Positions 4,624 to 13,908 of a stretch of 28,264 bases of DNA are shown here, piece after piece. Position 1 is the first letter of the stretch, and each line of letters begins with the position of its first letter. Origin of the DNA: a virus. The stretch lies in the IMG/VR virus record IMGVR_UViG_3300044625_000531, positions 1-28,264 of that record. The stretch is one strand, 5' to 3'. The position numbers and the translations under genes are program-made. Under the pieces are notes generated by a model. It worked only from the letters and a program-made list of their open reading frames with translations, was not told where the DNA came from and made no database searches.

Positions 4624-5133
4624 ATGAAAAATATAGAGGAGCAATTAACAATTAACCTAGATAACCTTTTGAAAATGGTTAAAAAAGAGGACCGCCTACG
4701 CGCTAAGAGTTTGCTTTACAAGATACACAACAACATTAATGCTGTGGACGGTAAGCAAAAGCACGAAAGCTACGGCTCGCCATTTGCTACTGAATTGCTT
4801 TCTAATATTTCTAACGTTAGCGCAGTTCCCTACCTAGATTTGGTGGGGCGCTGTCGGAAGCGTGAGTATGTAGATATTAGGCATTTTTGCTTTTGGGCAA
4901 TACGCAACAGCACGAAACTACCTTTAAATAAAATAGGTAAATTTTTCGAGCGCGATCATGCGACAGTATTACACGGCATTACAAATTTTGAGAATTTATC
5001 TAAGCACGATGAGAGCTACAGGAACCAAGTAACTCATTACCTACTAGCTTTAGATATTCCGTTATTAATTGAGAAATACGAAACACTAACCGACACAGTA
5101 ATAAAAAATGAAAAAGACACAATTAGCAATTAA
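4624..5133 (+). CDS. DnaA domain IV-like DNA-binding protein
   Basis: Product of 169 aa. Residues about 74-125 match the DnaA C-terminal domain: GRCRKREYVDIRHFCFWAIR, then LPLNKIGKFFERDHATVLHG. The RDHATVLHG segment (110-118) corresponds to the DnaA signature that contacts DnaA boxes. There is no AAA+ ATPase part, so this is a stand-alone binding module with its own helical N-terminus. It lies 2 nt after the SSB-like gene. It could mark a phage origin or compete with host DnaA; either role is inference. Confidence 0.75.
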   Translation: MKNIEEQLTINLDNLLKMVKKEDRLRAKSLLYKIHNNINAVDGKQKHESYGSPFATELLSNISNVSAVPYLDLVGRCRKREYVDIRHFCFWAIRNSTKLPLNKIGKFFERDHATVLHGITNFENLSKHDESYRNQVTHYLLALDIPLLIEKYETLTDTVIKNEKDTISN

Positions 5134-12245: not shown

Positions 12246-12287
12246 ATAACTAAATTTCTAACCTATCTAAATATTGTTAATCTTTGT

Positions 12288-12381
12288 GGCATGCGAAATA
12301 GGGGATACAATAGTTTAGTTCAAGATTTTCCAAAAGTGGTGCCTGGGGTGGTTTCGCATACGCCCTGGGCATTTTCTTTTT
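12288..12381 (+). ncRNA. Attenuator-like RNA ending in an intrinsic terminator
   Basis: Terminator: TGCCTGGGG (12340-12348) pairs with CCCTGGGCA (12363-12371), nine pairs with two G-U, 14-nt loop, then TTTTCTTTTT. Upstream ATGCGAAA (12291-12298) is perfectly complementary to TTTCGCAT (12352-12359) in that loop, and GGC (12288-12290) to GCC (12362-12364). The two folds compete or form a pseudoknot. A poor -7 box (AATCTTTG, 12279-12286) precedes it. Small RNA or attenuator. Confidence 0.5.
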
Positions 12382-12514
12382 ATGACTAGAGAAACCCATT
12401 TAACCTGCGTAAGGCAAAGCGCAGTATAGAAAGCCTAAACTTGCAGAACACCAGTGCTTGGATCGACTAAATGCTTCTTCTGAAGCGTGAACGTTTGTTT
12501 TTCTTGGGGGAGCT

Positions 12515-12569
12515 TTTTCTTTTCTTTCTTTTTCTTTTTTAGCTTTTTTCTTTTTCTTTCTTTTCTTTT
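12515..12569. repeat. Perfect polypyrimidine mirror repeat (H-DNA motif)
   Basis: Left arm 12515-12540 and right arm 12544-12569 are exact mirror images of 26 nt each, around the centre AGC. Read outward from the centre, each arm is T6 C T5 C T3 C T4 C T4. Such homopyrimidine mirror repeats can fold into an intramolecular triplex under negative supercoiling. It lies between the terminator RNA and the AT-rich segment. Confidence 0.9.
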
Positions 12570-12596
12570 AATGTACTGTAATATATAAGTATATTT

Positions 12597-12620
12597 AAGT
12601 AACTAACTAAGTAACTAACT
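12597..12620. repeat. Two tandem 12-mers (AAGTAACTAACT)
   Basis: AAGTAACTAACT occurs at 12597-12608 and again at 12609-12620, in an AT-rich stretch (12570-12671). The size and spacing (about one helical turn) fit iterons, but there are only two copies. Confidence 0.7.
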
Positions 12621-12671
12621 TAGATAAACAGCGTATAATTTTACACTATTTAATAGAATAATCTATTTAAC

Positions 12672-13793: not shown

Positions 13794-13908
13794 AGCACAG
13801 TGGCGGAATTGGTAAACGCACGGAATATAGGGTACACGGGGGTGTAACGGTTGAGCTGCTCCTATGGCTGAAGGCTCACAAATACAGGTTCGAATCCTGT
13901 CTGTGCTA
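13794..13908 (+). tRNA. tRNA-Leu-like gene with aberrant anticodon region
   Basis: Acceptor stem AGCACAG (13794-13800) / CTGTGCT (13901-13907), discriminator A13908, no encoded CCA. The D-arm GGCGGAATTGGTAAACGCA is of Leu type, and the T-arm ACAGG-TTCGAAT-CCTGT (13884-13900) is perfect. Between A26 (13820) and the T-arm are 63 nt instead of about 33, and no 5 bp stem with a 7-nt loop exists in it. ATAGG/CCTAT (13827-13831, 13861-13865) can pair with a 29-nt loop holding TACAC/GTGTA. No anticodon can be assigned; it may be degenerate or have a non-decoding role. Confidence 0.6.

Follow-up and report, generated by a model that had tools for sequence, protein, structure and literature searches.

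A covarying polypyrimidine mirror repeat in a predicted structured RNA gene of phage contigs: a candidate transcription-coupled triplex

The window, that is, the whole stretch of DNA analysed, is a contig of 28,264 nt (IMG/VR record IMGVR_UViG_3300044625_000531), with no end repeats noted. It presents a polypyrimidine mirror repeat on the plus strand at 12515-12569. Arm 1 (12515-12540) and arm 2 (12544-12569) have 26 nt each and are separated by the centre AGC (12541-12543). The pyrimidine tract starts at 12513. Both arms read outward T6 C T5 C T3 C T4 C T4 and are exact mirror images, so the letters and coordinates given in an initial annotation of this DNA are confirmed. In relatives, the centre is ACC, AAAC, AAC, ACTC, GTCC, CCC or ATAGTGCTTACACG. 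No other mirror repeat with arms of at least 12 nt is present in the window, and the two arms are its only plus-strand pyrimidine runs of 15 nt or more. The annotation also considered a chance origin unlikely. Our simulations agree: when the window was simulated 40 times with a first-order Markov model, mirror arms of pure pyrimidine or pure purine reached 9 nt at most. An assembly artefact was ruled out, as many samples yielded independent contigs with this tract. A coding explanation was also rejected. Read by eye, one relative (L012) appears to have an open reading frame that runs through the tract, whereas in the window this frame is broken by stops.

The tract is flanked by two other features. 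Upstream lie a shorter pyrimidine stretch, Y0 (GTTTGTTTTTCTT, 12493-12505), and a G-run linker (GGGGGAG), together at 12493-12512 on the plus strand. Downstream, positions 12570-12671 are AT-rich with short repeats (TAAGTAACTAAC, 2.1 copies at 12596-12620). Relatives are AT-rich at this place too, with unlike sequence. Y0 is a partial mirror of the outer end of arm 1, with a mean score of 12.4 against 9.0 (sd 2.8) for shuffled upstream sequence, a weak difference because some of the best matches are purine-rich stretches and not Y0. Similar mirroring across the G-run or a GTAGG linker seems to occur in group B loci (T6 C T3 on both sides) and in L326 (T5 C T4). Y0 and the outer end of arm 1 could form a second, alternative triplex.

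A conserved RNA core adjoins the tract on its 5' side, on the same strand. It consists of a hairpin, a pseudoknot and two more hairpins. The first helix, S1, pairs CTGCG (12405-12409) with CGCAG (12420-12424). It is 100% paired in 21 sequences, and three of its pairs are changed on both sides. The pseudoknot helix S2 joins AGGC in the S1 loop (12412-12415) to GCCT (12433-12436) and is 95% paired. One S2 pair is found as U-A, A-U and G-C, and in other lineages the whole helix is re-spelled (TTGCC/GGCAA, TTGGC/GCCAA, GATG/CATC, GGCT/AGCC). A near-invariant segment follows (ACTTGC...GCTTGGWWC, 12439-12464), formed by invariant alignment columns. Within it, the two sides of helix P2 (12443-12445 with 12455-12457) vary in concert. 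Helix P3 pairs TGCTTC (12472-12477) with GAAGCG (12482-12487). It is 99% paired, with five of its six pairs changed on both sides.

Taken together, S1, S2, P2 and P3 pair in 98.7% of cells over the 21 group A sequences, and 11 of the 18 pairs show two-sided changes. The covariation score of the core is 0.382, compared with 0.168 (sd 0.015) for shuffled alignments; none of 500 shuffles scored as high. Sliding the helix partners by 1-3 columns destroys the covariation. The signal therefore exceeds both shuffled and slid controls, as a structured noncoding RNA should. Minimum free energy folding of the RNA alone was no better than for shuffles (z -0.22), so the structure claim rests on covariation and not on energy. 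A further 5' domain (12290-12371, plus strand) belongs to group A only. It carries a hairpin, TGCCtGGG/CCCtGGGCA, at 12340-12371, whose loop TTTCGCATA (12352-12360) forms a candidate pseudoknot with CATGCGAAA (12290-12298), recognized by eye. Locus L022 has equivalent 5'-domain pairings in different letters, also by eye and with no formal count.

The predicted RNA spans 12287-12570 in the window. This changes the reading of two earlier claims. The "terminator-like RNA" upstream of the repeat belongs to a longer, conserved structured RNA (about 230 nt). Likewise, the repeat is not a free-standing DNA element in a gene-free region; it is the 3' part of an RNA gene.

Searched at gathering and permissive thresholds, Rfam families matched the element neither in the window nor in 15 relatives. 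We found no published description of it in the open-access literature. Judged from sequence, the core is a previously undescribed structured RNA family without an Rfam counterpart. The group A covariance model also matches group B and other members, with modest scores. The RNA model R1 found no confirmed member in 396 Bacteroidota genomes under strict filters, which could miss weak copies. A single weak match in these genomes (E 0.0036) lay in an unrelated context and was judged to be chance. There was no confirmed member among 50,697 phage records, and no DNA match of the group A or B RNA in cultured phages. Two loci (L279 and L378) have the RNA core (40 bits) with other sequence in place of the pyrimidine tract. 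A separate use of the core is possible in these loci.

A promoter motif lies immediately upstream of the predicted RNA. The consensus of the Bacteroidota -7 promoter element is TAnnTTTG (PMC7366714). The window has a near match, TAATCTTTG (12278-12286, plus strand), with one extra base; relatives show the exact motif at the corresponding position. In group B, the exact motif occurs within 45 nt upstream of the core in 66 of 80 loci, compared with 33 of 2803 control windows, and 62 of the 66 motifs lie 15-17 nt upstream of the core. Group A places it 110-210 nt upstream of the core in 92 of 112 loci (138 of 1342 control windows). These locus counts are slightly inflated because some loci are two cuts of one contig.

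The window terminase shares 47% identity with its counterpart in Flavobacterium phage 11b. Other nearest matches of the window include Cellulophaga, Bacteroides and Polaribacter phages. The host is therefore probably a member of Bacteroidota. Mirrors of pyrimidine or purine with arms of 11 nt or more were absent from Flavobacterium phage 11b, Polaribacter P12002L and the first 50 kb of Cellulophaga phi10:1. Elsewhere in the window, a tRNA-like gene of 115 nt (13794-13908) has standard acceptor, D and T arms and scores 43.5 bits with the Rfam tRNA model. About 60 nt replace or expand its anticodon region, and ARAGORN does not call the gene. A small protein with a DnaA C-terminal domain is encoded at 4624-5133 (Pfam Bac_DnaA_C, E 8.6e-14) and is present in many relatives too.

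The element is widespread in IMG/VR. Using the neighbouring ParB-like gene as query, we obtained 10 contigs, and the tract was present in all nine with enough upstream DNA. Several of these relatives have an extra gene inserted between the tract and the ParB gene. A tract-only pattern matched 88 stretches, a looser one at least 119, and overall the element is found in well over 100 contigs from many samples. It has one copy per genome in 35 of 35 matching contigs, most of them 29-34 kb long. The strand of the tract relative to the core is always the same. In group A, the gene order is VRR-nuclease, sigma-factor-like gene, one or two hypothetical genes, the element and then the terS region. The group A arms are nearly letter-identical even where the sigma-like proteins are only 28-37% identical. 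Group B (L213-L268 and others) has the element between two genes that were annotated, by eye and from similarity, as holin-type and NinG-like.

Mirror-like sequences of other kinds were also observed. Two longer contigs, L042 (145 kb) and L093 (72 kb), carry a perfect 24-nt mirror, T5 C T5 C T3 C T4 C T3, with the T/C spacing of the window. These mirrors are without the RNA core and lie directly 3' of a different hairpin. Loose mirror pattern matches in GTDB genomes were mostly simple repeats, and we discarded them as a different element. Seven GTDB loci (L102, L128, L129, L145, L146, L175 and L202) show a pyrimidine arm, a loop, a second pyrimidine arm and a purine arm. They resemble intrastrand triplex motifs. 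Several have near-identical contexts in Gastranaerophilales; others come from Diapherotrites and further groups.

The decisive test was a search by the RNA core alone, blind to the tract. Nearly every core found in this way has a pyrimidine mirror, and often a different one. At least 10 other T/C spacings were observed, and most of the re-spaced tracts have identical gaps in both arms. Examples are T8 C T4 C T3 C T4 (L296), T6 C T3 C T3 C T4 (L269), T6-7 C T5 C T6 C T3 (L272) and T5 C T5 C T4 (L324, L341 and L346). L273 and about 20 others form a class with a 14-nt centre. In L315, the right arm has decayed to almost pure T with the core intact, and this locus is a candidate natural loss-of-function variant.

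We counted the mirrored positions in 61 distinct tracts. Among 1098 positions, 889 are T/T, 147 C/C, 34 C/G or G/C, 13 other pairs of two non-T letters and only 15 T/non-T. Clashes of T with C number 5, while about 274 would be expected under independence. Because the centre is chosen to maximise the mirror, the test was repeated with the run order of arm 2 shuffled and the same centre search. No T/non-T clash over 20 nt was seen in 52 of the 61 real tracts, compared with 168 of 1830 shuffled ones. When the arms are aligned at their best shift, a mirror gives 216 matches and 21 clashes, and a direct repeat 139 matches and 122 clashes. Thus, the symmetry is kept across changed bases and changed spacing. 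The opposite pattern, a variable pyrimidine tract with no mirror in the relatives, was looked for as evidence against the initial proposal and did not appear.

Simple slippage or template switching gives direct or inverted copies, not mirror ones. For this reason, and because compensatory change of both arms over many lineages is evidence of selection on symmetry, we infer that the mirror symmetry itself must be under selection.

Isolated, non-adjacent C's are expected for pyrimidine-motif triplexes near neutral pH. None of the 61 tracts has adjacent C's in its arms, and the window element, a homopyrimidine mirror with 26-nt arms and a 3-nt centre, is well beyond the arm length of about 10 nt looked for in H-DNA mirror repeats. 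A pyrimidine third strand forms the triplets T.A-T and C+.G-C, so T faces T and C faces C (PMC4689454). Replacements of C/C by C/G (19) and by G/C (15) are about equally common, so neither arm is fixed as the duplex arm. Tracts of the L273 type mix both replacements within one tract. By the triplet rules, a C/G replacement is compatible with G.G-C in one isomer, and the A/G tracts of L271 and five others agree with G.T-A. Six mirrored positions show G/G or A/A; these lie outside the canonical triplets and may be mismatches that are tolerated. A mirror hairpin with U.U and C-G pairs was rejected: it explains C/G, but not why C/C predominates or why T opposite C is avoided. Compensatory change of mirrored arms is the signature of pyrimidine-motif triplex pairing under selection. 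The triplex part of the initial proposal gains strong support from the matched arm changes; its suggestion of a replication origin fares worse, as discussed below.

What would the partner be? In 11 genomes, no purine copy of the tract was found elsewhere with up to 2 mismatches. Matches at 3-4 mismatches were scattered in these genomes, and the window itself has none within 4. Since the spacing varies between lineages, the purine strand of the locus itself is the only partner certain to covary, and it is the likely one. The data fit both a displaced DNA strand (H-DNA) and an RNA (RNA-DNA-DNA triplex) as third strand. We regard RNA as more likely because the RNA gene almost always precedes the tract.

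The reading that we prefer, with a slight balance of probability in its favour, is a triplex formed while the RNA gene is transcribed, which would stall RNA polymerase and hold the RNA at its gene. The Bacteroidota-type promoter would start the RNA, and the core would fold into its pseudoknot and hairpins. Transcription would then enter the mirror tract, where the purine strand serves as template. One pyrimidine arm would stay in duplex with its own purine strand. The other would fold back into the major groove to form a Hoogsteen third strand, with T.A-T and C+.G-C triplets and, in some relatives, G.G-C or G.T-A. This third strand might be the displaced DNA or, more likely, the nascent U/C-rich RNA. 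RNA polymerase would stall, and the folded RNA would stay tethered at its own gene. Such a structure might insulate the adjoining transcription modules, or serve as a stable RNA-DNA primer for host replication enzymes; both uses are speculative.

A pure DNA element is unlikely by comparison. Supercoiling would here extrude H-DNA without any RNA, and the structure would pause forks, or would open the AT-rich DNA downstream for a replication start. Such an element could draw on the AT-rich repeats downstream and on the DnaA C-terminal-domain protein, and the mirror covariation suits H-DNA as well as an RNA-DNA-DNA triplex. However, the RNA core and the promoter motif accompany nearly every tract, always on the same strand. 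Moreover, GC skew was examined in 10 whole contigs and the window. It tracks the direction of the genes, also where the early genes are reversed, and shows no strand-composition switch at the element. An origin role is therefore not supported, although unidirectional replication would be compatible with an absent switch. The element forms the 3' end portion of a new RNA gene, which favours a role coupled to transcription over a bare DNA switch.

A packaging site (pac or cos) is also unlikely, given the distance between element and terminase genes in group B. The element is near terS in group A, but in two group B genomes 6.7-8.9 kb separate it from terminase-like genes (by eye), so its closeness to terS is not constant. 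The reading of contig ends as genome ends was rejected as well: in 35 contigs, they are scattered relative to the element. What remains, speculatively, is a module boundary and transcription stalling, possibly with primer formation.

The finished RNA might instead act in trans, its U/C arms clamping a purine-rich host or phage RNA or DNA in the manner of MALAT1/ENE, with its own purine strand absent. Two mirrored pyrimidine arms with a short loop do have the layout of a triplex clamp, and the RNA core is conserved. Nevertheless, the C spacing shifts between lineages while the arms agree, which makes a fixed external partner unlikely, and the purine search in the 11 genomes points the same way. 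We consider this reading quite unlikely.

Very unlikely, in our view, is a terminator or module boundary in which an unstructured U-rich tail ends the RNA and separates operons, with symmetry as a by-product. The tract does follow a hairpin-rich RNA and lies between gene modules, ahead of terS and the structural genes in group A and between the holin-type and NinG-like genes in group B. An ordinary U-tail, however, needs no mirror, and it would leave the two-sided changes over at least 10 spacings without a cause. Nor was a hairpin of terminator type seen directly next to the tract. Finally, a protein reading the pyrimidine DNA or RNA in two mirror-related halves would suit arms that are near-invariant across many lineages, but it is highly improbable, as double helices have dyad and not mirror symmetry and recognition of base identity would not tolerate so many different matched spacings.

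The preferred transcription-coupled triplex leads to a broader proposal, which we offer tentatively and hold to be possible but on balance doubtful. The element might represent a new class, in which a phage RNA gene carries a covarying mirror repeat that encodes an RNA-DNA-DNA triplex, anchors its nascent transcript to the template by this triplex and so controls replication start or the hand-over between transcription modules. It is an old question whether triplex DNA serves any selected function in cells, since mirror repeats abound and their link to function is mostly no more than a correlation. This element is small, well delimited and open to experiment, and it is accompanied by a structured RNA family, so far undescribed, that is widespread in IMG/VR contigs.

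Several known systems share part of this organization. GOLLD and ROOL are also structured noncoding RNAs of uncultured phages, whereas the present RNA has no Rfam match, is much shorter and carries a mirror tract at its end. The primer RNAs, ColE1 RNA II and the mitochondrial CSB II transcript, likewise place a G-run and a T-rich stretch after a structured RNA, with one copy per genome. This likeness is an analogy, and GC skew lends it no support. The MALAT1 and PAN (ENE) triple helices have two U-rich segments in a structured noncoding RNA, together with an A-rich third segment; the predicted RNA at 12287-12570 contains none. The TMECO/BoxC motifs are conserved triplex-type sequences of prokaryotic DNA that form their triplex inside a single strand, using a purine segment of their own, and are G/C-rich and multicopy (PMC4666352). 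In contrast, the present tract has no adjacent purine segment on the same strand and has one copy per genome. With this segment missing, neither a TMECO-type intrastrand triplex nor a MALAT1-type RNA triplex fits. Physically, the element would act like H-DNA or an RNA-DNA triplex. In form, it resembles H-DNA mirror repeats: perfect homopyrimidine arms of more than 20 nt, a short centre, isolated C's and an intergenic position. Sequences capable of H-DNA are described as few in prokaryotes (PMC4666352). Unlike them, the element described here shows compensatory mirror change over many lineages and is tied to a structured RNA gene.
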